A stretch of DNA of 41,741 nt from assembly GCF_027532945.1 (NCBI RefSeq), contig NZ_JAPZTZ010000024.1, positions 1 to 41,741 of the forward strand, read 5' to 3'. Shown in pieces: positions 5,058 through 23,790 of this stretch. The notes under the pieces are model-generated. The model did not search any database, was not told where the DNA came from, and was given only the letters and a program-made list of their open reading frames with translations. Made by a program: the position numbers and the translations under genes. How positions within the stretch are numbered: position 1 is the first letter of the stretch; every line of letters begins with the position of its first letter. Source of the DNA: Phreatobacter sp. GTDB taxonomy: Bacteria; Pseudomonadota; Alphaproteobacteria; Rhizobiales; Phreatobacteraceae.

Positions 5058-6620
5058 TCAGTTGACGGCGCGCGCCCGCCCCTCCCAATGGGGGCTTCTC
5101 AGGGCGGTCTTCAGGATCTTGTTGGCCTGCGACAGCGGCATCTCGTCCCGGACCTCGATGGTCTGCGGGCATTTGAACCCGGCGATGCGTGTCTTGCAGT
5201 GGGCGATGATCTCGTCCGGCGTGGCGCTCTGGCCGGCCTTGAAGGTGACGACGGCGTGCACCGCCTCGCCCCAGATGGCGTGCGGCACACCGATGACGGC
5301 GCATTCGCGGATGGCCGGGTGGGTGAGGACGGCGTTCTCCACCTCGATCGAATAGACGTTCTCGCCGCCGGTCACGATCATGTCCTTGATGCGGTCGGAG
5401 ACGTAGAGATAGCCGTCGGCGTCGAGATAGCCGGCATCGCCCGTGTGCATGTAGCCGCCGCGCAGCGCGTCCGCCGTCATCTCCGGCTGGCCCCAGTAGC
5501 CCTTCATCACGGTCGCCCCGGCGACGATGATCTCGCCGATCTGGCCCACCGGCACGTCGCGGTCGTTCTCGTCCACCACGCGGATGTCGCAGCCGACGAT
5601 GGCGCGTCCGCCCGAGGCGAGGCGATGCACCTTGGCCGGGTCGAGCGAATGGTCGGCGGGCTCCAGATAGGTGCAGGCCGGCGAGAGCTCGGTCATTCCA
5701 TAGGCCTGGGAGAAGCGCACATGCGGCAGCCGCTGGATCAGCGCCTCCAGCGTCGCCACTGGCATGGGCGCGCCGCCATAGCCGATCAGCTGCAGCGAGG
5801 AGAGGTCATAGGCGTCGAGATCCGGCTCGTTGAGGATCATCGTCATCATGGTCGGCACCATGGAGGTCATGGTGATCCGGTGGGTCTGGATCGCCTCCAG
5901 AACGCCTTTCACGGTGAAGCGCGGGATGACGACATGGGTCGCGCCGAGCAGCGTGTTGGTGAAGACGCGGGACCCCGCCGCCGCATGATAGAGCGGCCCG
6001 GCATGGAGCCCGACCACCGAGCTGTCGAGCTTGGTGTGGACCATGCCGCCGAAGGAATTCGCCATGCAGTTGGTGTGGGTGAGCATGACGCCCTTGGAGC
6101 GCCCGGTCGTCCCGCCCGTGTAGAACAGCACCGCGATGTCATCGCCGCCGCGGCGGGCATCCTCGGCGGGCGCAGCGGCTGCCAGCGCGGCGTCATAGGC
6201 GATCATGCCGGCGGGGCAGGGCCCCTCGCCCGCATGGATCATGTGCGCGAGATCCGGGCATTGCGGCCTCAGGGCCTCGGCCATCTCGACGAACTCGTCG
6301 CCCACGAGAAGGATTTTTGCGCCGCAATCCTGCATCAGGAAGGTGGTCTCGGGCAGCGCATAGCGGGTGGAGACCGGCACGGCGATGCCGCCCGCCCAGA
6401 ACGCCGCGAAGAAGAATTCGAGATAGCGGTCGGAGGAATGGGAGAGCATGGCGACGCGGTCGCCGGGCTGGAAGTCGAGACCCTTCAGGACCCCTGCGAG
6501 CCGCGCCACCCGGTCCAGGAACTGCGTGTAGGTCCAGCGCCGCCCGGCGAAGACCAGGGCCGTCTTGTCCGGAAACAGCCGTTGCGCGCGGTGCAGCGCG
6601 AGGGTGAGCTGCATCGTCAT
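5058..6620 (-). CDS. Acyl-CoA synthetase (AMP-dependent ligase), first gene of a tandem pair
   Basis: This 520-residue ANL-superfamily ligase has YTGGTTGRSKGVML (167-180) as the ATP phosphate loop, YGMTELSPA as the adenine motif, HTGDAGYLDADGYLYVSDR for the hinge region, and GGENVYSIEVENAV after it. The C-terminal lysine motif is ANKILKTAL rather than the common SGKxxK, but the lysine is retained. It is only moderately similar to its downstream neighbour, so the pair is not a recent duplication and probably has different substrates. MTMQLTL and MQLTL are both possible starts. No dehydrogenase or thiolase genes lie alongside, which leaves the pathway open. Confidence 0.9.
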   Translation of the reverse strand: MTMQLTLALHRAQRLFPDKTALVFAGRRWTYTQFLDRVARLAGVLKGLDFQPGDRVAMLSHSSDRYLEFFFAAFWAGGIAVPVSTRYALPETTFLMQDCGAKILLVGDEFVEMAEALRPQCPDLAHMIHAGEGPCPAGMIAYDAALAAAAPAEDARRGGDDIAVLFYTGGTTGRSKGVMLTHTNCMANSFGGMVHTKLDSSVVGLHAGPLYHAAAGSRVFTNTLLGATHVVIPRFTVKGVLEAIQTHRITMTSMVPTMMTMILNEPDLDAYDLSSLQLIGYGGAPMPVATLEALIQRLPHVRFSQAYGMTELSPACTYLEPADHSLDPAKVHRLASGGRAIVGCDIRVVDENDRDVPVGQIGEIIVAGATVMKGYWGQPEMTADALRGGYMHTGDAGYLDADGYLYVSDRIKDMIVTGGENVYSIEVENAVLTHPAIRECAVIGVPHAIWGEAVHAVVTFKAGQSATPDEIIAHCKTRIAGFKCPQTIEVRDEMPLSQANKILKTALRSPHWEGRARAVN

Positions 6621-8065: not shown

Positions 8066-9595
8066 TCACACCGCCATGGCCTGCTTCTCGCGCCGGCGCT
8101 GCACCGACGAGGGAATGCGCAGCGCCTCGCGATATTTCGCCACCGTGCGGCGGGCGATGTCGATGCCGGCGTCCTTGAGCTTGTCCATGATCGCGTCGTC
8201 GGAGAGCACGTCGTCCGGCGTCTCCGCATCGATCATCTGCTTGATGCGGTAGCGCACGGCTTCCGCCGAATGGCTCTCGCCGCCCTCCGAACTCGCGATC
8301 GACGAGGTGAAGAAGTACTTCATCTCGAAAATGCCGCGGCTGGTGGCGATCGACTTGTTCGAGGTGACGCGCGACACGGTCGATTCATGCATGCCGATGG
8401 CATCGGCGATGGTCTTGAGGTTCAGCGGCCTCAGATACTCGACGCCGAGGGCGAAGAAGGCGTCCTGCTGGCGGACGATCTCGGTCGCGACCTTCAGGAT
8501 GGTGCGGGCGCGCTGGTCGAGGGCGCGGGCGAGCCAGGTCGCTGTCTGCAACGCGTCGGCGAGGAAAGCCTTTTCCCCGTCGCTCTTCGTCGTCTTCGAC
8601 ACCCGGGCGTAATAGCTCTGGTTAACCAGCACCTTCGGGAGCGTCTCGCTGTTCAGCTCGACGATCCAGCCGCCATCCGGGCCGGCACGCACCATCACGT
8701 CGGGCACCAGCGGCTGGACGGGCGCGAAGCCGAAGGCGAGGCCTGGTTTGGGGTTGAGGCGGCGGATCTCGGCGACCATGTCGGCGAGGTCTTCCTCGTC
8801 CACGGCGCAGAGCTTGCGCAGCTGGGCATAGTCGCGCTTCGCCAGCAGGTCGAGATGGCCGACCAGCACCTGCATGGCCGGGTCGAAGCGATCCTTGTCG
8901 CGCAGCTGGATGGCGAGGCATTCGGCGAGGTTCCGCGCCGCGACGCCCGAGGGCTCGAAGCTCTGGATGACCTCCAGCACGCTGACGACATCCTCGACCT
9001 CGGCGCCGAGCCGGTCGGCGACATCCTCGACCGTCACGGTGAGGTAGCCGGCCTCGTCGATGGCATCGATCAGCATTTGCCCGATGAGCCGGTCTGCCGG
9101 CACCTCCACCGCCAGCGCCAGCTGGTTCGACAGGTGGTCCTGCAACGACAGGTCGGCCGAGACGAAGGCTTCGAGGTTGTAATCCTCGTTGTCGCTGCCA
9201 CCCGACCCGACATTGGCCCAGGACGAGGTCATGGGGTCGGAGGCGGCGTCCACATGCTTTGCCTCGGGTCCCTTGTCGTCGGGAAAGACGTTCTCAAGCT
9301 CGGTGCCGAGTCGATCCTCGATGTCGGTCCGGCTGTTGCCCATGTCATCGCCGAGCCAGTCGCCGGCCTGGGCATCACCGCCATCGGCTATGGCGGGGGC
9401 CTCCGGCGCCTCGCCCTCGACGGTCGGTTCGGGCGTGTCGGCGCGCTCCAGGATCGGGTTCTTCTCCAGCTCCTGCTCGACATAGGCGACAAGATCGAGG
9501 TTCGACAGCTGCAGGAGCTTGATGGCCTGCATGAGCTGGGGCGTCATGACCAGAGACTGGCCGACGCGAAGCTCCAATCGTGCAGACAGGGCCAT
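8066..9595 (-). CDS. rpoN: RNA polymerase sigma-54 factor
   Basis: The 509-residue protein directs RNA polymerase to -24/-12 promoters that need an AAA+ activator, controlling nitrogen, carbon and surface functions. The glutamine/leucine-rich region I is at the start (SLVMTPQLMQAIKLLQLSNL), followed by an acidic region II (about 50-115), the core-binding and helix-turn-helix regions (HESTVSRVTSNK near 395), and the RpoN box ARRTVAKYREA near the C-terminus, which binds the -24 element. Length is normal. In many relatives rpoN follows lptB directly and is followed by hpf and ptsN; here an opposite-strand gene separates it from lptB, and the repeat and cysE follow instead. Confidence 0.96.
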   Translation of the reverse strand: MALSARLELRVGQSLVMTPQLMQAIKLLQLSNLDLVAYVEQELEKNPILERADTPEPTVEGEAPEAPAIADGGDAQAGDWLGDDMGNSRTDIEDRLGTELENVFPDDKGPEAKHVDAASDPMTSSWANVGSGGSDNEDYNLEAFVSADLSLQDHLSNQLALAVEVPADRLIGQMLIDAIDEAGYLTVTVEDVADRLGAEVEDVVSVLEVIQSFEPSGVAARNLAECLAIQLRDKDRFDPAMQVLVGHLDLLAKRDYAQLRKLCAVDEEDLADMVAEIRRLNPKPGLAFGFAPVQPLVPDVMVRAGPDGGWIVELNSETLPKVLVNQSYYARVSKTTKSDGEKAFLADALQTATWLARALDQRARTILKVATEIVRQQDAFFALGVEYLRPLNLKTIADAIGMHESTVSRVTSNKSIATSRGIFEMKYFFTSSIASSEGGESHSAEAVRYRIKQMIDAETPDDVLSDDAIMDKLKDAGIDIARRTVAKYREALRIPSSVQRRREKQAMAV

Positions 9596-9780
9596 CGGTG
9601 TCCTTCGGCTTCACCCGTTGCGAGCGTGACGGCCGATCATAGGCGGGGGCCGTCGCATATAGCAAGGTTCATGCCATGGTACCGATGACTGCGAGGTTAA
9701 GGGCGGCGGAGATATCCGGGCTTGAGCCTTGGCCCTGTCGGGGCCACGGTACCTGACGCTGCGTCATTCTGGAGCCTCCC

Positions 9781-10224
9781 ATGAAGCGCCCGTGGCTATT
9801 GGTCCTTGCCCTGATCCTTGCTCTGTCGCCGGCCGCCGCCGCACCCGCCGACGAGGCCAATGCCGTGGTCGATGCCTGGGTCGCCCGTTACAGCGCCAAT
9901 GATCGCGACGGGGTCGTCGCGCTCTACGCGCCGGATGCGATCCTGCTTGGCACCACCAGCCCCGTCATCTCCGAGGGAACGGACCAGATCCGCACCTATT
10001 TCGACGAACTTCCCGGCAGCGGCCGGTCGAACCGCATCACCGATCGCCGTACGCGCGTCCTGTCGCCCGATGCTGTGCTGTCGACGGGCTTCTATGCCTT
10101 CGCCCGGGCCGCTGAGGGCAACGTGCCGCGCCCCTCGCGCTTCTCGATGCTGCTGGTGCGGCGGGACGGCCGGTGGCTGATCCTGCACCACCATTCCTCG
10201 CCACACTCGGCAGTCCGGCGCTAG
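9781..10224 (+). CDS. Exported NTF2-like (SgcJ/EcaC, DUF4440-type) protein
   Basis: This is a 147-residue protein with a clear Sec signal peptide (MKRPWLLVLALILALSPAAAA) and a single SnoaL/NTF2-like alpha-beta barrel. The segment VVDAWVARYSANDRDGVVALYAPDAILLGT is the usual start of that fold, and the C-terminus, LLVRRDGRWLILHHHSS, is typical of the calcium/calmodulin kinase association-domain and SgcJ/EcaC groups. Members bind small ligands or dimerise; no activity can be assigned. The mature protein would be periplasmic. GGAG lies upstream of the ATG. Its stop is 1 bp from that of lptB, tail to tail, and it is inserted between lptB and rpoN against their direction. Confidence 0.8.
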   Translation: MKRPWLLVLALILALSPAAAAPADEANAVVDAWVARYSANDRDGVVALYAPDAILLGTTSPVISEGTDQIRTYFDELPGSGRSNRITDRRTRVLSPDAVLSTGFYAFARAAEGNVPRPSRFSMLLVRRDGRWLILHHHSSPHSAVRR

Positions 10225-10225
10225 G

Positions 10226-11116
10226 TCAGAGCCGGAATTCCTCGCCGAGATAGAGGCGGCGCACATCCGGGTTGGCGACGATCTCGTCCGGCGTGCCTTC
10301 CATCAGCACCTGGCCGGAATGGATGATGTAGGCGCGGTCGATCAGGCCAAGCGTCTCGCGGACATTGTGGTCGGTGATCAGCACGCCGATTCCGCGCTCC
10401 TTCAGGTGGCGGACGAGATTCTGGATGTCGCCGACCGCGATAGGGTCGATGCCGGCGAAGGGCTCGTCGAGCAGCATGAAGGAGGGCCGCGTCGCCAGAG
10501 CGCGGGCGATTTCGAGGCGGCGGCGCTCGCCGCCCGAGAGGGCGATGGCCGGGCTCTTGCGCAGCCGGGTGATGGTGAACTCCTCGAGCAGCTCGTCGAG
10601 GTCGCGCTCGCGCTTGGCCTTGTCCTTCTCGGTCACCTCGAGGACGGCGCGGATATTGTCCTCGACATTGAGGCCACGGAAGATCGAGGCCTCCTGCGGC
10701 AGGTAGCCGATGCCGAGGCGGGCGCGGCGATACATGGGCAGCGCCGTGATGTCATGGCCGTCGAGTTCGATATGGCCTTTGTCGGCCTCGACGAGGCCGG
10801 TGATCATATAGAAGACCGTGGTCTTGCCGGCGCCGTTCGGGCCGAGCAGGCCGACCGCCTCGCCGCGCCTGAGGTCGAGGCTGACGCCGCGCACGACGGC
10901 GCGGCCCTTGTAGCTCTTCCACACGCCATGGACCGACAGCACGCCCTGGCCGGAGCGCGGCTCCTCCTGCTCACGCGGCAGCGGGGCCTGCGGCGGCTGG
11001 TCGAGCTCGGCGACCTGCGCCGCCATTTCCCTGACCAGCCAGTCTCCGTCGACGGGCTCCGGGGCCGGAGCCGGCTTGCGGCCCATCAGGCCGGTGACGC
11101 GGTCGAGGACGGACAC
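10226..11116 (-). CDS. lptB: Lipopolysaccharide export ATPase LptB, with N-terminal extension
   Basis: The 296-residue ABC ATPase powers LptFG to extract LPS from the inner membrane and push it along the LptC-LptA-LptD bridge. Walker A is GPNGAGKTT (92-100), the signature LSGGERRR starts at 193, and Walker B with the catalytic Glu is FMLLDEPF (213-220), followed by the H-loop in LITDHNVRE. The ABC core starts near residue 58. The preceding ~57 residues are proline-rich and acidic and are absent from E. coli LptB (about 241 aa). The ATG at 11116 opens only 12 bp after the lptA stop, so the extension is probably real and the genes are co-transcribed. Confidence 0.94.
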   Translation of the reverse strand: MSVLDRVTGLMGRKPAPAPEPVDGDWLVREMAAQVAELDQPPQAPLPREQEEPRSGQGVLSVHGVWKSYKGRAVVRGVSLDLRRGEAVGLLGPNGAGKTTVFYMITGLVEADKGHIELDGHDITALPMYRRARLGIGYLPQEASIFRGLNVEDNIRAVLEVTEKDKAKRERDLDELLEEFTITRLRKSPAIALSGGERRRLEIARALATRPSFMLLDEPFAGIDPIAVGDIQNLVRHLKERGIGVLITDHNVRETLGLIDRAYIIHSGQVLMEGTPDEIVANPDVRRLYLGEEFRL

Positions 11117-16123: not shown

Positions 16124-17200
16124 ATGTATCGATGGACGACCGCCGCGGCCGTAGCCGCGCTCACGCTCACCGGCGCACTGCCGGTGCTGGCCCAGACGGT
16201 GCCGGCCGGACCGCAGGTCAATGTGCAGATCGTCACCCAGCCGAACCCGACCATGCCGCAGTTCACGCGGGTCGATCAGCCGCTGCTGCGCGACGGCCTC
16301 GCCACCAAGTCGAACGGCCGCATCCGCGTGACGCTCGCCTCCTGGCCCGAGCGCAACCTCAACGGTCCGGAAATTCTCCGCCTTGTCCGTTCCGGCCAGG
16401 TCGATATCGGCGCGGTGCCGCTGAACACGGTGGCTGGCGACGTGCCGCTGCTCGACGTGGTCGACCTCGCCGGTCTCAATCCCAGCCTCGACCAGGCCCG
16501 CAAGGTCGCCGCCGCCATGCTGCCGGAGGCCAACAGGGAGCTGGAGCGCTTCGGCGTCCGCATCCTCGCCATGTATCCCTTCGCGGCGCAGCAGTTCTTC
16601 TGCCGCGGCGAGGTGAAGAGCCTTGCCGATCTGCGCGGCAAGCGCATCCGGACCAGCGGCGGGTCCTCGAATGACTTCGTCAGCCAGATCGGTGGCCAGC
16701 CCACCGGCATCGGCTTCCCCGAGGTTTACTCCGCGCTCGAGCGGGGCGTTGTCGACTGCGCCATCACCGGCAGCGGTTCGGGGAACTCGGCTCGCTGGTA
16801 CGAGGTCACCCAGAGCCTCTATGCCCTGCCGCTCTTCTGGTCGGTCTCCGCCTATGTCGTGAACATCCAGTGGTGGAACCGCCTCGACCCGGCCGTGCGC
16901 GCCGCCATGGAAGAGACCATCAAGGAGGTCGAGGAGGCGCAGTGGAAGCTGGGTCTCGAGCAGACCGAGGATGGCATCTCCTGCAACATCGGCGACCGTG
17001 CCAATTGCAAGCTTGGCCGCGTGCCGGACGCCAATCCGATGCGCGTCTTCCGTCCCGTCGAAGCCGACACGGCGGTGATGCGTACGACGCTGACCTCCAC
17101 CATCCTGCCGGCCTGGGTGCAGCGCTGCGGCGCCCGTTGCGGTGAGGTCTACAACCGCGTCGTCGCCCCGATCACCGGCGTCCGCTTCGGCACCAACTGA
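16124..17200 (+). CDS. TRAP transporter substrate-binding protein (DctP family)
   Basis: The 358-residue protein has a signal peptide (residues 1-23, ending LPVLAQ) and the DctP fold. The family arginine and flanking segment lie in LADLRGKRIRTSGGSSNDFV, followed by GFPEVYSALERGVVDCAITG, typical of TRAP binding proteins. It captures a carboxylate in the periplasm and delivers it to the QM permease encoded downstream. AAGGAG precedes the ATG. Cysteine pairs near the C-terminus (CNIGDRANC and RCGARC) could form disulfides. A strong hairpin follows the gene, which would let the binding protein be made in excess of the permease. The closest subfamily ligand is not identifiable. Confidence 0.92.
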   Translation: MYRWTTAAAVAALTLTGALPVLAQTVPAGPQVNVQIVTQPNPTMPQFTRVDQPLLRDGLATKSNGRIRVTLASWPERNLNGPEILRLVRSGQVDIGAVPLNTVAGDVPLLDVVDLAGLNPSLDQARKVAAAMLPEANRELERFGVRILAMYPFAAQQFFCRGEVKSLADLRGKRIRTSGGSSNDFVSQIGGQPTGIGFPEVYSALERGVVDCAITGSGSGNSARWYEVTQSLYALPLFWSVSAYVVNIQWWNRLDPAVRAAMEETIKEVEEAQWKLGLEQTEDGISCNIGDRANCKLGRVPDANPMRVFRPVEADTAVMRTTLTSTILPAWVQRCGARCGEVYNRVVAPITGVRFGTN

Positions 17201-17210
17201 CACACACGGC

Positions 17211-17236
17211 CCGGCGCGGGCGGGGACCCGCGCCGG
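17211..17236 (+). terminator. Strong intercistronic hairpin between TRAP P and Q genes
   Basis: A perfect 10-bp GC stem (CCGGCGCGGG / CCCGCGCCGG) encloses a 6-nt loop just after the binding-protein stop. It has no T-tract, so it more likely acts as a partial terminator or an mRNA 3'-end stabiliser, giving more binding protein than permease. Confidence 0.55.
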
Positions 17237-17330
17237 AACCTTGCATCATTTTGATCACGACATCGACGGATGCCGGCGCGATCATGACGCCGGAACGGGC
17301 GGGCCGTTGGCCGGCCGCGAGGGGACTGCC

Positions 17331-17969
17331 ATGCTGAACACATTGATTGATGTCGCGGGGCTGGGCCGAAGGGCCGTCGCCCGGGTCGGCACCCTCATGG
17401 GCTATGTCGCCGGCTGGGGCTTCCTCGCGATTTCCGCCCTCATCACCTTCGACGTGCTGGGCCGCCGCTTCTTCGGCATCTCGACCCAGGCCACCACAGA
17501 GCTCTCCGGCTATGCGCTGGCCTTCGGCATGGCCTGGGGCCTCGCCCACACGCTCTCCATGCGCGCCCATGTGCGGATCGACGTGGTGGTGAACCTGTTT
17601 CCCCCGCGCATCCGCCAGTGGCTGCACCTGACCAGCCTCGCCTTCCTCGGCGTGCTGGCCGGCTACCTGTTCTACGGGGCCTGGACGCTGGTGGAGGAAT
17701 CCATGCTGTTCAACGCCACCGACATCAGCGTCATCCGCACGCCGCTGGCGATCCCGCAAGGGCTCTGGGCCGCCGGCATCGGCGTCTTCTTCGTCCTCAT
17801 CCTCGCGCTCTTCATCGAGGCGCTGCTCCTCGTCCTTGCGGGACGCACCGGCGAAGCCGAGGCCCTGCTCACCAGCCGCACCTACCAGGAGGAGGTCGCC
17901 GAGGCGCTCGAAGCCGTCGGCGAACCCGTCCCCGAAACCGCCGCCGCCAGCCCCGAGGTGAAGCCGTGA
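17331..17969 (+). CDS. TRAP transporter small permease (DctQ family)
   Basis: The 212-residue membrane protein has four predicted helices, including GYVAGWGFLAISALITFDVL and GLWAAGIGVFFVLILALFIEA. The conserved DctQ pattern FDVLGRRFFG and the central MRAHVRIDVV are present. It pairs with the large permease and stabilises it. The last 40 residues are acidic and probably cytoplasmic. The gene ends in TGA within GTGA, overlapping the start of the dctM-type gene by 4 bp. The ATG at 17331 is preferred because the upstream frame contains the P-Q hairpin. Confidence 0.9.
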   Translation: MLNTLIDVAGLGRRAVARVGTLMGYVAGWGFLAISALITFDVLGRRFFGISTQATTELSGYALAFGMAWGLAHTLSMRAHVRIDVVVNLFPPRIRQWLHLTSLAFLGVLAGYLFYGAWTLVEESMLFNATDISVIRTPLAIPQGLWAAGIGVFFVLILALFIEALLLVLAGRTGEAEALLTSRTYQEEVAEALEAVGEPVPETAAASPEVKP

Positions 17970-19342
17970 TCGCCGTCGTCTTCCTCCTCATCCTCGTCGG
18001 CATCATGGTCGGCATGAGCTTCACCGGCCATGCGCCGTCGGGCGAGCTCATGGGCGAAATCCTGCTGCTGGTCGGCCTCTTCGTCGTCTTCTTCGGAATG
18101 GGCATCTATGTCGGCGCCGCCCTCGGCGTCCTCGGCCTCATCGTCGGCTATGCCTTCTCCGACCGGCCTTTCTGGCTGTTCATCGGCCAGACCATCTGGA
18201 ATCCCTCCTCCTCCTTCGTGCTGGTGGCGGTGCCGCTCTTCTTGCTGATGGGCGAGATCTTGCTGCGCGCCGGCCTCTCCGACCGGCTCTACAAGACGCT
18301 GAACATCTGGCTGAACCGGATGCCCGGCGGCCTCCTGCACACCAACATCGCGGCGTCCGGCGTCTTCTCGGCGATCTCCGGCTCGTCGGTCGCCACCGCT
18401 GCCACCATGGGCTCGGTGGCGCTGCCCTTCTTCCAGGGAAAGCCCTATGACCCGAAGATGGTGCTCGGCTCCCTCGCCGCCGGCGGCGCGCTGGGCAACC
18501 TCATCCCGCCCGGCATCACCTTCATCATCTACGGCCTCATCACCGAGACCTCTGTGGGCGCGCTCTATATCGCCGCCATCGGGCCGAGCATCCTCGTCGT
18601 CGCGCTGTTCATCGCCATCATCCTGCTCAAGGCCAAGACCGCCGCGCCGAAGGACCCAGACGGGCCGCGCTATACCTGGGGCGAGAAATTCCGCAGCCTC
18701 GTGGACCTGACCCCCACCGCCATCCTCATCCTCATCGTGCTCGGCACGATCTATGGCGGCCTTGCCACCGCAACGGAATCGGCGGCGCTGGGCGTCATCG
18801 CCGCCATCGTGCTCGCCGCCTTCGACGGCAAGCTCTCCTTCAAGATGCTGAACGACTCGGCCGAGGCCACCGCGCGCAACACCGCGCTCATCGGCCTGAT
18901 CCTCTTCGGCGCCTATCTCCTGAACTACGTCTTCACCGCGCTCGGCGTGCCGCAGGCCCTCGCCAAGCTCGTCTCCGAGATGCCGCTGCCGCCCTGGGCG
19001 ATCATGCTGCTGATCATCGGGTTCTACCTGGCGCTCGGCACCTTCATGGAGGGCTTCTCCATGATGATCACCACGATACCGGTGATCTTCCCCGTCGTGC
19101 AGGCGCTCGGCTACGACCCGATCTGGTTCGGCGTCATCGTCGTCATGCTGGTGGAGATCGCGCTGATCTCGCCACCTGACGGCACGGTGCTCTACGTGCT
19201 GCAGGGCATGCGCAAGGATGGCGGGCCCATCACCGACGTCTTCTCCGGCGTCCTGCCCTTCATGCTCGTCTACATCCTGGCGGTGGGGATCCTGATGGTC
19301 TTTCCCTCCATCGCCCTCTGGCTGCCAAGCGTCATGCGCTGA
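17966..19342 (+). CDS. TRAP transporter large permease (DctM family)
   Basis: The 458-residue protein is the ion-coupled permease with about 12 hydrophobic segments. Family landmarks are VPLFLLMGEILLRAGLSDRL, SGSSVATAATMGSVALP and the loop GALGNLIPPGITFIIYG, plus the second-half GTFMEGFSMMITTIPVIFP and ISPPDGTVLYVLQG. It starts with GTG inside the stop of the small permease gene. Together with the P and Q proteins it imports an organic acid using a sodium gradient, as in the family. Confidence 0.93.
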   Translation: MIAVVFLLILVGIMVGMSFTGHAPSGELMGEILLLVGLFVVFFGMGIYVGAALGVLGLIVGYAFSDRPFWLFIGQTIWNPSSSFVLVAVPLFLLMGEILLRAGLSDRLYKTLNIWLNRMPGGLLHTNIAASGVFSAISGSSVATAATMGSVALPFFQGKPYDPKMVLGSLAAGGALGNLIPPGITFIIYGLITETSVGALYIAAIGPSILVVALFIAIILLKAKTAAPKDPDGPRYTWGEKFRSLVDLTPTAILILIVLGTIYGGLATATESAALGVIAAIVLAAFDGKLSFKMLNDSAEATARNTALIGLILFGAYLLNYVFTALGVPQALAKLVSEMPLPPWAIMLLIIGFYLALGTFMEGFSMMITTIPVIFPVVQALGYDPIWFGVIVVMLVEIALISPPDGTVLYVLQGMRKDGGPITDVFSGVLPFMLVYILAVGILMVFPSIALWLPSVMR

Positions 19343-19583
19343 GAGCGGGCCCGCCCCGGCGATCGGTTCAGATTGCGTTCAGTTGGAAGGTCCCATGACA
19401 GGGGCCTCACGACCGTCGGGGCGTCGGGGCCGCCTGCCGAAGTTCACCCTGCGCGAGGAATCGCGACACGGTGGCTTTATTCGACAGGAAAGCCTCGCTA
19501 TAGCTCCGTCCCGGTTGATTTTCAGCGGATGACGGCCAGGCGGCGCCACAGGCGTGGCCGGCCCAAGGGACGAAAGTTCGGAC

Positions 19584-21749
19584 ATGACGCGAGTCGCGAT
19601 TATCGGTGGCGGGCCGGGTGGGCTCTTCACCAACTACCTGCTGGACCGCTTCTGTGACGGCCTCTTCACGGCGACCCTGTTCGAAGCCTCCGACCGGCTC
19701 GGCGGCAAGGTCGCCACCGACAGCTTCGAGAAGGGCAACTCGCTCTTCGAGCGCGGCGTGGCGGAGTTCTACGACTATTCCCATTTCGGCCCGGACCCGC
19801 TGAAGCGCATCATCACCGAGGTCTTCGGCCTCGACGTCGTGCCGATGGACGGCAAGGGCGTCATCCTCGACGGCAAGGTCCTCAACACCCGCCGGGACAT
19901 CAAGAAGCACTTCGGCGAGGCGACCGCCAAGGCGATCGACGATTTCCACGCCAAGTGCCATGAGCTCTGCTCGGCGGACGAGTATTACGAGGGCTATTCG
20001 GGCGACGACAACAAGCACCCCTGGGGCGGCAAGACCTTCCGCGAGGTGCTCGACGAGATCCCGGACGAGATGGCCCGCAAATATATCGAGGTCGCCTCGC
20101 GCTCCGACGTCGCCACCGAGGCCCAGCTCACCAACGCGCTGAACGGCCTGAAGAACGTCCTGATGGACGACCCGAAATACCTGCGCCTCTATTCCATCGT
20201 CGGCGGCAACGAGAAGCTCATCGAGGGTCTCGCCGAGCGCATCTCCGCCAAGGTCATGCTGGAGAGCCGCGTGGCCAAGGTCCGCCGCAACGAGGGCGGC
20301 ACCTACACGCTCACCGTCCGCCGCAAGGGCCGCGACGAGACGCACGAGTTCGACCACGTCGTCGTCGCCGTGCCGAACTACTGGGTCAGCCAGATCGAGT
20401 TCGAGGGCCGCGAGGAGCGCATGGCGATCCAGGCGCACCAGGCCCGCTACGACAACCCGGCCCACTATCTGCGCGTCACCATCCAGTTCAAGAAGCCGTT
20501 CTGGGGCGAGACCTTCCAGGGCCACTACGTTATGACGGACGCCTTCGGCGGCTGCTGCATCTATGACGAGAGCGCCCGCCATCCCTCCAAGCACGGCGTG
20601 CTCGGCTGGCTGATCCCGGCGAGCCAGGCTCTCGCCCTGTCGAATCTCGACGACGAGCGCCTCGTGCAGCTCGCCCTCGACTCGCTCCCCGCCGAGCTGA
20701 TCGCCACGGCGAAGAAGCAGATGATGGATGCCAAGGTCCAGCGCTGGGTCGGCACCATCTCCGGCCTGCCGGGCGGCCATCCGACCCCGTCGCTGCGTGA
20801 CCGTCACCAGCCGGACGGCAAGGTTCTGCCGAACCTCTATCTCGTCGGCGACTACCTCTTCGACTCGACGGTGAACGGCGCCTATGACAGCGCCAATTTC
20901 GTCGTCGATATGATGATGGGCAAGCTGCGCGGTGCCGCCTATTCCGGCGCCCGCAAGAAGGCCGATCTCGAGAAGCAGAAGGGCGTCATCGAGGAGGGCT
21001 TCGTCGAGTCGACCCTCACCGACGACTACCACGACGAATATGCCGTCGGCCTCTCCTACGAGGAGAGCTTCCGCGAGTATTTCGACGAGCAGTACAACGC
21101 CGATCTCTACCAGTGCATCTTCGGCATCAAGCCGCCCTACACCCTGCTCGACGTGGGCTCGGCCTCGGGCCTGACGCTGAAGTGCTTCGCCGATATCGGC
21201 ATCGACGCCTGGGGCATCGAGAATTCCCGGCACGTCCATGCCCAGACGCCGAAGGATTGGCTGCACCGCAACCTGCTCGGCGACGTGACGAACCTGCCCT
21301 TCGAGGACAAGTCCTTCGACGTCATCTACGACACCTGCCTGTGCTACGTGCCGGAAGAGCTGATCGACAAGGCGATCGAGGAGCTGTTCCGCGTCACCCG
21401 CATCGGCATCTTCTTCGGCGGCATCACCGCCGACATGACCCGCGAGGTGATCGAGTATCACGACGTCTTCGACGGCGTCCTGACTCTGGAGACGACCTGG
21501 CAGTGGTCCGAGCGCTTCCAGAAGCATGGCTGGCGCCCGGCCGTCCACGACCAGAAGATCCTCAAGAGGGCCTGGAAGATCGAGTGCGACGCCAACGAGG
21601 GCGACTTCCCCTGGTATCCGGACATGGAGACCATGCGCTACTGCTTCTACGCCAAGCCGGACGCCGCCCAGTGGGTGGAGAAGCTGATGGCCGGCCGCGA
21701 GAAGGGACCGACCTCCAAGCTGCGGCTGGTGGCCGGCGGCAAGCGCTGA
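19584..21749 (+). CDS. Fusion of flavin amine-oxidase-like dehydrogenase and SAM-dependent methyltransferase
   Basis: This 721-residue protein has two complete enzyme-like halves. Residues 1 to about 450 form an FAD-binding amine-oxidase/protoporphyrinogen-oxidase-like domain: dinucleotide fold VAIIGGGPGGLF (glycines 8-13), LFEASDRLGGK after it, a VVVAVPNYW segment, and the C-terminal FAD contact YLVGDYLFDSTVNGAYDSA (GD at 422-423). Residues about 485-721 form a class I methyltransferase: motif I LLDVGSASG (D523), acidic residue after strand 2 (WGIENS), and LPFEDKSFDVIYDTCL (from about 571). The methyltransferase lacks nothing obvious. The ATG at 19584 starts the Rossmann fold at the proper distance; the 41-bp gap to the next upstream frame start carries no better site. 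Substrate is unknown. A strong terminator follows, so the gene is probably monocistronic. Confidence 0.85.
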   Translation: MTRVAIIGGGPGGLFTNYLLDRFCDGLFTATLFEASDRLGGKVATDSFEKGNSLFERGVAEFYDYSHFGPDPLKRIITEVFGLDVVPMDGKGVILDGKVLNTRRDIKKHFGEATAKAIDDFHAKCHELCSADEYYEGYSGDDNKHPWGGKTFREVLDEIPDEMARKYIEVASRSDVATEAQLTNALNGLKNVLMDDPKYLRLYSIVGGNEKLIEGLAERISAKVMLESRVAKVRRNEGGTYTLTVRRKGRDETHEFDHVVVAVPNYWVSQIEFEGREERMAIQAHQARYDNPAHYLRVTIQFKKPFWGETFQGHYVMTDAFGGCCIYDESARHPSKHGVLGWLIPASQALALSNLDDERLVQLALDSLPAELIATAKKQMMDAKVQRWVGTISGLPGGHPTPSLRDRHQPDGKVLPNLYLVGDYLFDSTVNGAYDSANFVVDMMMGKLRGAAYSGARKKADLEKQKGVIEEGFVESTLTDDYHDEYAVGLSYEESFREYFDEQYNADLYQCIFGIKPPYTLLDVGSASGLTLKCFADIGIDAWGIENSRHVHAQTPKDWLHRNLLGDVTNLPFEDKSFDVIYDTCLCYVPEELIDKAIEELFRVTRIGIFFGGITADMTREVIEYHDVFDGVLTLETTWQWSERFQKHGWRPAVHDQKILKRAWKIECDANEGDFPWYPDMETMRYCFYAKPDAAQWVEKLMAGREKGPTSKLRLVAGGKR

Positions 21750-21774
21750 GCCGCTCCAATCGATAACATCCGAG

Positions 21775-21802
21775 AAAGCCGGGCCATGCGCCCGGCTTTT
21801 TT
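21775..21802 (+). terminator. Rho-independent terminator after the fusion gene
   Basis: A perfect 10-bp stem (AAAGCCGGGC / GCCCGGCTTT) with a 5-nt loop (CATGC) is followed by more T residues. It lies 26 bp after the fusion gene stop. Confidence 0.85.
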
Positions 21803-21942
21803 GCATCGCGCTTATGGTCCCCGGCGGGCTGCCGGCGCGGTTTTCGGATGCATCCTGTGACAGAATGCGGCATGAGGATGGGGCGACAGGCGTCCGGGCC
21901 CCTCCGGCCGCGCATGGCCCCGTACCGACCCCAAGACCCGTC

Positions 21943-23790
21943 ATGAGCCAGGACAAGAACTACGTCGAGCCCGTCGACGAGGATGACGAGGAGGAGGAAG
22001 AGGATGTCAGCGCCGATGACCTTCGGCTCATGGCCCGCTTCCTGGCGCCCTTCGCCGCGCCCTACAAGACCACCATCGCCATTCTCGTCGTCCTGATCCT
22101 GACCGAGGCGGCCCTCAACTTCTCCTTCCCGCTCGTCACCCAGTACCTGATCGACGAGGGCCTGATCAAAAAGGAGTGGCGGGCGCTCCTCAACTCGCTG
22201 ATGTTCATGGGCATTGCCGCCATTGCGGTCTCCGGCGTCGCCCTGCTCGCTGATTTCGTCTACACGCGCCTCTTTGCCGACATCACGCGCGACATCCGCC
22301 AGCGCCTCTTCGACCATGTCCAGTCGATGTCGATGCCCTTCTTCCACACGACGCCGACAGGCACGGTCCTGTCGCGCTTCTCCGGCGACCTCGTGGCGCT
22401 CGAGGCGGCCCTCGTCGCCTTCGTGCCCGGCTTCGTCATGCCCTTCATGGAGGTCATCTACGCCACGATCCTGATGTTCATGTTCGACATCTGGCTCGGG
22501 CTGATCGCCTCGCTCGTCTTCCCGATGATCCTGTGGTGGCCGCGCATCTTCGCCCGCAAGGCCTTCCTCTTCGCCTATGAGAAACGCCAGACCGAAGGCC
22601 GCCTCATGACGGCGGTCCAGGAAAACGTCTCGGCCCAGCCGGTGATCAAGGCCTTCGGCATGGTGGGCCGGGCGCGCCTTGCCTTCGCCGGCATCAACGG
22701 CGTCTGGGTCGCCGTTGCCCGCCGCACCAACTTCTCCTCCGCCCTGGTGGAGCGCACCGCGCAGACCGGCCTCTATGTCATTCACATCGCCGTCTTCGCG
22801 CTCGGCGCCTACTGGGCCTTCACCGACCGCATCACGGTGGGGACGATCATCGCCTTCGAGGGCGTGTTCCTCTCCATGGGCTACGCCCTCACCAACGTGA
22901 CGCAATATGTGCCGACGCTGGCCCAGGCGGCCGGCTCCATCCGCCATCTCGACGATCTTCTGGCGGTCAAGCCGACCATGGTCGATGCGCCGGATGCCGG
23001 CACGCTCGCCCCCTTCGAGCGCGAGATCGTCTTCGACAATGTCGCCTTCTCCTATCCCGGCTCGTCCTTCCGCACCGAGCAGCTGGCCGTCACCGTCCCC
23101 AAGGGCTCCTTCCTCGGCATCGTCGGCCCCTCGGGCTCGGGAAAAAGCACCTTCCTCAACCTGCTGATGCGCTTCTATGACCCCGTCGAGGGCCGCGTGA
23201 CCATCGACGGAACGGATATCCGAACGGTCACCCAGGCCTCGCTGCGCGCCCAGATGGCCGTGGTGTTCCAGGAAAGCTTCCTGTTCAACACCTCCATCGC
23301 CGAGAACATCCGCATGGCCTATCCGGACGCGACGATGGACGACATCATCGCCGCCGCCCGACAGGCCGAGGTCCATGATTTCATCGCCGCCCTGCCGCTC
23401 GGCTACGACACGATGGTGGGCGAGCGCGGCGGCCAGCTCTCCGGCGGTCAGCGCCAGCGCGTCGCCATCGCCCGGGCGCTTGTGCGCAATCCTGCCGTCC
23501 TCATCCTCGACGAGGCGACGAGCGCCCTCGACGCCGAGACCGAATCCAAGCTCAACGAGACCCTGCGCCGCATCGCCGAGACGCGCACCGTCGTCTCGGT
23601 CACCCACCGGCTCGGCAGCGTCGTCACCGCCGACCGCATCATCGTGCTGGACCACGGCCATATCGCCGAGACCGGCACCCACGAGGAGCTGCTGCGTGCC
23701 GGGGGCCTCTACGCCACCATGTGGTCGCGCCAGCAATCGGCCCGCAAGGCTGTGGCCGCGGTCGAGGACGACGAGGAAGAGGACGAGTGA
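21943..23790 (+). CDS. ABC transporter half-transporter (exporter type, transmembrane plus ATPase)
   Basis: The 615-residue protein joins a type I exporter membrane domain (six helices, about residues 35-330) to an ATPase domain. Walker A is GPSGSGKST (from 395), the Q-loop lies in VFQESFLFN, the signature is LSGGQRQR (from 499), Walker B LILDEATSALD follows, and the H-loop is VTHRLGS. It should work as a homodimer unless a partner lies elsewhere. Both ends are strikingly acidic (DEDDEEEEED at residues about 12-21, and EDDEEEDE at the C-terminus). The substrate is unknown; MsbA-like lipid and multidrug exporters share the layout. The start at 21943 (MSQDKNY) avoids an upstream stretch without family similarity. 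Confidence 0.9.
   Translation: MSQDKNYVEPVDEDDEEEEEDVSADDLRLMARFLAPFAAPYKTTIAILVVLILTEAALNFSFPLVTQYLIDEGLIKKEWRALLNSLMFMGIAAIAVSGVALLADFVYTRLFADITRDIRQRLFDHVQSMSMPFFHTTPTGTVLSRFSGDLVALEAALVAFVPGFVMPFMEVIYATILMFMFDIWLGLIASLVFPMILWWPRIFARKAFLFAYEKRQTEGRLMTAVQENVSAQPVIKAFGMVGRARLAFAGINGVWVAVARRTNFSSALVERTAQTGLYVIHIAVFALGAYWAFTDRITVGTIIAFEGVFLSMGYALTNVTQYVPTLAQAAGSIRHLDDLLAVKPTMVDAPDAGTLAPFEREIVFDNVAFSYPGSSFRTEQLAVTVPKGSFLGIVGPSGSGKSTFLNLLMRFYDPVEGRVTIDGTDIRTVTQASLRAQMAVVFQESFLFNTSIAENIRMAYPDATMDDIIAAARQAEVHDFIAALPLGYDTMVGERGGQLSGGQRQRVAIARALVRNPAVLILDEATSALDAETESKLNETLRRIAETRTVVSVTHRLGSVVTADRIIVLDHGHIAETGTHEELLRAGGLYATMWSRQQSARKAVAAVEDDEEEDE

Follow-up and report, generated by a model that had tools for sequence, protein, structure and literature searches.

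What might a single bacterial polypeptide do that carries an amine oxidase-like flavoenzyme domain in its N-terminal half and a SAM methyltransferase domain in its C-terminal half? The question is raised by a gene on a 41,741-nucleotide stretch of DNA from Phreatobacter sp. (contig NZ_JAPZTZ010000024.1), which is called the window below. We examined the protein itself, its relatives, its genomic surroundings, and the known enzymes that it resembles.

One gene encodes both domains

The fusion is encoded on the forward strand by a single uninterrupted open reading frame of 721 amino acids, which starts with an ATG at position 19584 and ends with its stop codon at 21749. A further in-frame GTG is present at 19554, and the ATG was taken as the start because close relatives begin there. 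The flavoenzyme domain (residues about 1 to 450; 19584 to 20933) was delimited by Pfam, AlphaFold2, and Foldseek, with residues 26 to 438 matching the flavin amine oxidoreductase family PF01593 (E value of 7.6e-28; 98.4 bits against a cut-off of 19.8). The methyltransferase domain (residues about 511 to 690; 21114 to 21653) was delimited by alignment and profile searches, and its residues 522 to 608 match the class I SAM methyltransferase family PF08241, methyltransferase 11 (E value of 1.1e-9; 39.2 bits against a cut-off of 21.2). Between them is a linker (residues about 451 to 510; 20934 to 21113) that varies in length and sequence among lineages. An initial annotation, made from the sequence of the window, had described one polypeptide with these two domains, with the score of the C-terminal domain as a methyltransferase as one of the points to check; the Pfam matches, both above their cut-offs, agree with that description. 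It had also held that both halves keep their cofactor motifs, and each of these was found where it had been placed: GGGPGG at residues 8 to 13, GD at 422 and 423, LLDVGSASG at 521 to 529, and LPFEDKSFDVIYD at 571 to 583. Among the best 25 of 28 NCBIfam matches, none exceeded its own cut-off, the top ones being a protoporphyrinogen oxidase model and a DVU_1556-type methyltransferase model.

The fusion recurs in several alphaproteobacterial lineages

The fusion gene is the only match to itself in its own genome at an E value of 0.001 or lower. Full-length relatives (35 to 98% identity) are found in Phreatobacter, in a second family, here labelled f35, and in four further alphaproteobacterial families, with a single genome apiece; a frameshift or misassembly as the origin of the fusion is thereby ruled out. 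At the order level (297 genomes; E value of 0.001 or lower), 54 genomes gave some match and 23 contained the fusion: 12 from Phreatobacter, counting that of the window, 9 from f35, and one each from families f52 (G089) and f50 (G050). The non-fusion matches scored at most 39 bits. A class-level search (385 genomes; E value of 1e-30 or lower) returned four matches, two of them new (G1211 and G1032, at 37 to 38%), and a phylum-level search (398 genomes; E value of 1e-20 or lower) returned 11, namely the genome of the window and 10 genomes of f35. In one f35 genome (G035; locus L053, positions 9019 to 11078) the fusion is read as two open pieces meeting within the flavin domain, probably owing to a frameshift or a sequencing error. 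Plasmid-borne relatives were considered and rejected, since the matches, on seven Pseudomonas plasmids, cover just a methyltransferase stretch. No study of this family was found in the literature searched, which comprised the main texts of papers available without subscription.

An alignment of 23 fused proteins contains 116 invariant columns, including G8 to G10, G12 and G13, R297, G422 and D423, G525, G529, and E546. In all nine pairs compared by the Nei-Gojobori method, dN/dS was 0.09 to 0.24 over residues 1 to 450 and 0.08 to 0.16 over residues 511 to 690, which indicates purifying selection on both halves. In f35 the linker evolves more quickly, with a dN above that of the domains. Given the full-length homologues, the invariant columns, and the low dN/dS in both halves, the protein is the product of neither chance nor misassembly; it represents a real, conserved family in which flavoenzymes of the flavoprotein amine oxidoreductase (FAO) superfamily are naturally fused to class I SAM methyltransferases. 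A single origin of the fusion was not upheld by a flavin-domain tree of 21 rows, in which one branch separated the fused rows from all others in only 44% of bootstraps (support 45/9).

The flavoenzyme half has an arginine in place of the superfamily lysine

An AlphaFold2 model of the flavin domain alone (residues 1 to 454) reached a pLDDT of 78.9, and its best 50 Foldseek matches were flavin oxidases, among them L-amino acid oxidase, monoamine oxidases (MAO) A and B, putrescine oxidase, and protoporphyrinogen oxidase, at 14 to 20% identity and with E values down to 5.7e-24. The full-length protein, modelled with 10 alignment rows, was predicted poorly (pLDDT of 55.2), with the methyltransferase half mostly below 50. 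By Pfam score and by fold, then, the N-terminal half belongs to the FAO superfamily, and residues 1 to 450 have the fold and FAD motifs in common with putrescine oxidase, MAO, and L-amino acid oxidase. The fusion differs from these enzymes in its attached methyltransferase and in one otherwise nearly universal residue. In a profile search of solved structures, R297 (codon at 20472 to 20474) stands opposite the lysine of putrescine oxidase and that of an L-amino acid oxidase ancestor. This position is arginine in every aligned row: in 23 of 23 fused proteins, in all 15 rows of a second alignment (A2) that includes four planctomycete flavoenzymes, and in all 10 rows of a third (A4) that includes three viral ones. 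According to a 2025 study, the superfamily lysine next to flavin N5 aids the reaction with oxygen and is nearly universal though not absolute, a small number of members having glutamate instead (PMC12224317). To call the fusion an amine oxidase may therefore be misleading, and from the substitution we expect a flavin chemistry that is dehydrogenase- or desaturase-like, or otherwise oxygen-poor, and not that of a classical amine oxidase.

Relatives of the flavoenzyme occur without a methyltransferase

At four planctomycete loci (L009, L010, L011, and L068) the flavoenzyme has no methyltransferase and is followed by a protein of 260 to 310 amino acids, with a C-terminal membrane anchor apparent by eye, and then by a membrane acyltransferase. 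This third gene of the cluster is of the HGSNAT type in L011 (10268 to 11389; PF07786, 68 bits), with homologues at the other three loci. A search of the phylum of one planctomycete relative (294 genomes; E value of 1e-30 or lower) gave three matches, one of them divergent (G684). A protein related to the 260- to 310-residue partner is also encoded downstream of fused genes, in L052 (two copies; genome G050), L070, and L071. With the L071 copy as the query, none was found in 10 Phreatobacter and 10 f35 genomes; the copies in G655 and G908 escaped this query as well. The C-terminal tail had suggested a DUF155/RMD1 protein, an assignment we rejected because PF02582 was silent on the partner in G050, G1211, G1032, G655, G656, G657, and G908, while it did find other members in G1032 and G1211. 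Three partner proteins, searched against Pfam (L052), NCBIfam (L071), or both (L011), gave no match.

A scan of IMG/VR added three viral contigs (L084, L085, and L086) with a flavoenzyme at 40 to 42% to the query and no methyltransferase match; in the flavin-domain tree the viral rows lie close to the fused ones. The viral flavoenzymes adjoin a minor head protein (phrog_220; Mu F-like), whose Pfam match is above the cut-off in L084 and L086 and below it in L085. In L085 the flavoenzyme and the head protein share one open reading frame of 1,457 amino acids, with an intein-like stretch, below the cut-off, between them. A collection of annotated phages contained no relative of the L084 flavoenzyme at an E value of 1e-3. 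The planctomycete and viral relatives indicate that the flavin and methyl activities need not be coupled.

These observations bear on whether the flavin half has a catalytic part at all. The protein could be a methyltransferase whose FAD half has a structural or regulatory role or senses the redox state, with the chemistry done by the SAM half alone, as would fit the loss of the superfamily lysine. A helper role of this kind has also been considered for the oxidase half of plant cyclopropane fatty-acid synthases, and the cotton enzyme GhCPS1 is described as keeping about 30% of its activity without that half (PMC3132707). However, alphaproteobacterial, planctomycete, and viral copies of the flavin half agree without exception at FAD-motif and other residues, and in planctomycetes and on viral contigs the flavoenzyme occurs with no methyltransferase; together these argue that the flavin half has its own function, and we regard a pure helper role as unlikely.

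The methyltransferase half is conserved, with an altered motif I in some lineages

When the methyltransferase profile was compared with solved structures, 35 distinct sequences matched at an E value of 0.001 or lower, nearly all of them named methyltransferases. The best was LahSB (E value of 3.1e-9), a peptide methyltransferase. Besides the PF08241 score, the assignment to class I SAM methyltransferases draws on G525 and G529 of motif I (residues 521 to 529; 21144 to 21170) and on E546 (codon at 21219 to 21221), the acidic residue after strand 2 and presumably a contact of the SAM ribose, all three invariant in the 23 fused rows. Further toward the C terminus of the domain, W639, W641, G649, W664, W677, Y678, and D680 are invariant as well. 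The motif I aspartate at position 523 is more variable: the 23 rows have D in 11, the window among them, V in 8, I in 1, and H in 3, where the nine f35 rows all have V or I and the three with H are L052, L070, and L071. The methyltransferase may thus be weak in f35 and at those three loci.

This raises the possibility that the protein is a flavoenzyme whose SAM-binding domain has degenerated into a SAM sensor or a partner-binding module, methylation having been lost. The replaced acidic residue in 12 of the 23 rows would fit, as would the PF08241 score of L052, down to 26.0 bits (E value of 1.4e-5) though still above the cut-off of 21.2. Against it, the methyltransferase half is constrained at least about as much as the FAD half, the glycine motif, E546, and the C-terminal tryptophan, tyrosine, and aspartate residues do not vary, and the copy in the window retains LLDVG and scores well against PF08241. 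We find degeneration improbable.

An ABC exporter adjoins the fusion in two lineages

The gene downstream of the fusion (21943 to 23790, forward strand; an additional in-frame ATG lies at 21814) encodes a half-transporter with domains PF00664 and PF00005, an ABC exporter of the MsbA/P-glycoprotein type. Among the best 25 of its 199 NCBIfam matches, none reached its own cut-off: MsbA_rel, the best, scored 405 bits against 780, and MsbA_lipidA 373 against 602, and the identification as the lipid A exporter MsbA was rejected on this equivalog cut-off. In the order (297 genomes, each represented by no more than four scored candidates), a match of at least 485 bits was found in 21 genomes, 12 from Phreatobacter and 9 from f35, and in none of the 274 genomes that lack the fusion; the next best match scored 339 bits. 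All 21 follow closely behind the fusion on its strand and account for 21 of the 23 fusion genomes, the two without such a match being G050 and G089 (in the latter, only about 0.6 kb downstream was available and was read by eye). An exporter near the fusion was likewise not found in G1211 and G1032.

When 15 genes of the window were compared with f35 loci L043 and L047, the fusion and the exporter were the only ones found near the fusion there (a faulty DctQ query gave no match at any locus). Across 11 Phreatobacter loci from nine genomes, the genes past the exporter differ in five, and the pair stays together. The nearby exporter gene that the initial annotation had pointed out is thus a conserved neighbor in two lineages whose surroundings otherwise differ; because only two lineages are concerned, this is evidence of linkage and not of many independent events. 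Upstream of the fusion, positions 16124 to 19342 of the window hold genes that look, by eye, like those of a TRAP transporter. Genes like DctP and DctM occur at all 11 Phreatobacter loci (nine genomes) and were not found in L043 and L047.

An intrinsic terminator had been proposed between fusion and exporter, and folding supports one at 21771 to 21803 (forward strand), a 14-pair hairpin of -23.7 kcal/mol (z score of -4.5) that a simple scan lists with fewer pairs. L054 and L055 have hairpins of other sequence at this position. In f35 (L043 to L051 and L053) the gap holds a promoter-like stretch before the exporter, TTGCCG-17-TAGAAT in 8 of 10 loci and TAGGAT as its second element in the other 2. 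Given these features, fusion and exporter do not form one simple operon, and each may have its own promoter.

The pair is flanked by rpoC on one side and rpsL-rpsG-fusA on the other at all 10 f35 loci, as located by tblastn; the names rpoB, rpoC, rpsL, rpsG, fusA, and tuf follow from a reading of the L043 proteins. None of these f35 genes turned up beside the fusions of L052, L070, and L071. For the place of the pair in Bradyrhizobium diazoefficiens the tags bll5406 to bll5408 were at first a guess, and published tags of the neighbors bore this out. There, bll5402 to bll5404 are given as tuf, fusA, and rpsG (PMC6320959), and bll5409 and bll5410 as RNA polymerase subunits (PMC8225791). Tags 5406 to 5408 fall between these two groups, so the f35 gene order fits that of B. 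diazoefficiens, and family f35 is probably Bradyrhizobium. Papers name bll5409 and bll5410; none was found whose main text names bll5406, bll5407, or bll5408.

Known fusions of flavin- and SAM-using domains are of other families

Plant cyclopropane fatty-acid synthases (CPS) have a methyltransferase of the CMAS class (PF02353). That of the fusion is instead PF08241, with no match to PF02353 up to an E value of 1, whereas genuine CMAS proteins score 261 to 281 bits. The domain order is nevertheless the same: cotton GhCPS1 and GhCPS2 and the Sterculia CPS are described as single polypeptides that begin with an oxidase domain bearing an FAD motif and end with a SAM-using CPS domain (PMC3132707), and Arabidopsis AT3G23510, similarly built, matches both UfaD, a flavoprotein desaturase, and UfaM, a methyltransferase (PMC10940516). 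UfaD is reported to be a fatty acyl desaturase (PMC7380195). The claim in the initial annotation that no named enzyme has this order was accordingly too strong, as the plant enzymes share it and MnmC has the reverse (PMC3132707, PMC3648344). TmsA and TmsB, which make 10-methylstearate and are also used as fusions, resemble the fusion, in a review's description, as a reductase and a methyltransferase acting on acyl chains (PMC7762315).

Membership in the plant CPS or UfaD-UfaM family was rejected, as the fusion has no CMAS-type domain and its flavin half is similar just at the superfamily level. For this comparison, UfaD was represented by UfaD-like proteins chosen by their place beside DUF1365. 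The flavin half shares 21 to 24% with them over the nucleotide-binding part; BLAST finds three of the four (E values of 1e-5 to 6e-5), and the profiles align with an E value of 1.1e-12 over 229 columns. The methyltransferase half aligns with CMAS around motif I only (hhalign, 73% over 73 columns). At this level of similarity the fusion belongs to another family, which may nonetheless work in a similar way. DUF1365 was present in five of six fusion genomes tested (absent from G184), and the surrounding regions encode a PF01593 flavoprotein, UfaD-like by place, in four of the five and a CMAS protein in three: both in G143 and G050, the former in G000 and G019, and the latter in G1032. In two Phreatobacter genomes, that of the window included, the separate PF01593 flavoprotein beside DUF1365 lies at L092, 4725 to 6077, and L095, 2576 to 3928, and these loci possibly serve fatty-acid modification. 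That the fusion itself acts in the plant CPS or bacterial UfaD-UfaM pathway, on the fatty acyl chains of phospholipids, would agree with its domain order and with the lipid/drug-type exporter beside it; the low similarity of both halves, and the separate UfaD-like and/or CMAS genes in some fusion genomes, make this rather improbable.

MnmC, a well-studied bifunctional enzyme of the tRNA wobble uridine, likewise combines FAD-dependent oxidation and SAM-dependent methylation in one polypeptide, with the methyltransferase N-terminal and the oxidase C-terminal (PMC3648344). The fusion does not belong with it: besides the reversed order, the families differ, with the DAO match at 22.9 bits, below the cut-off of 27.9, and no MnmC-type methyltransferase family among the 12 Pfam matches up to an E value of 1. 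An MnmC-like role, in which a macromolecule such as tRNA or a peptide is oxidised and then methylated, might be read from the f35 position between rpoC and rpsL as a link to translation and from the peptide methyltransferase LahSB as the best solved match, but it does not account for the exporter, the rpo, rps, fusA, and tuf genes of f35 were not seen around the fusions of L052, L070, and L071, and we consider it very improbable.

A possible tailoring enzyme and its exporter

The conserved family, together with the membrane pump that adjoins it in two groups, suggests that the fusion probably tailors a small molecule or lipid for export. The reading that we tentatively favor, at somewhat less than even confidence, is a bifunctional tailoring enzyme, acting on a molecule that is exported or belongs to the envelope, whose FAD half oxidises a molecule, whose SAM half methylates that molecule or its product, and whose product is moved by the exporter. 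The protein would bind both FAD and SAM; the flavin half would take two electrons from a small organic or lipid-like substrate, desaturating or dehydrogenating it, the SAM half would methylate the same molecule or what is made from it, and the ABC exporter would carry the product across the inner membrane. MnmC and UfaM/UfaD are precedents for a flavoenzyme and a methyltransferase that work in succession on one substrate. Fusions of flavin enzymes with SAM-using enzymes are already known, and what would set this one apart, judged by its sequence, is that it belongs to a different family.

A wider proposal, which we offer as more speculative, is that flavoenzymes carrying arginine instead of the lysine form an undescribed family that has recruited lineage-specific partners. 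In Phreatobacter and the Bradyrhizobium-like group these would be a methyltransferase and an exporter, in other alphaproteobacteria a membrane-anchored protein, in planctomycetes that protein together with a membrane acyltransferase, and on viral contigs a phage head protein. The product in the exporter group might then be a metabolite or envelope lipid of a new kind, methylated and exported. If the tailoring reading is right, the enzyme and its exporter would form a conserved two-gene neighborhood in a group that probably includes soybean symbionts, and the family would offer a natural case in which to test how a flavin enzyme of this superfamily behaves after arginine has replaced its lysine.
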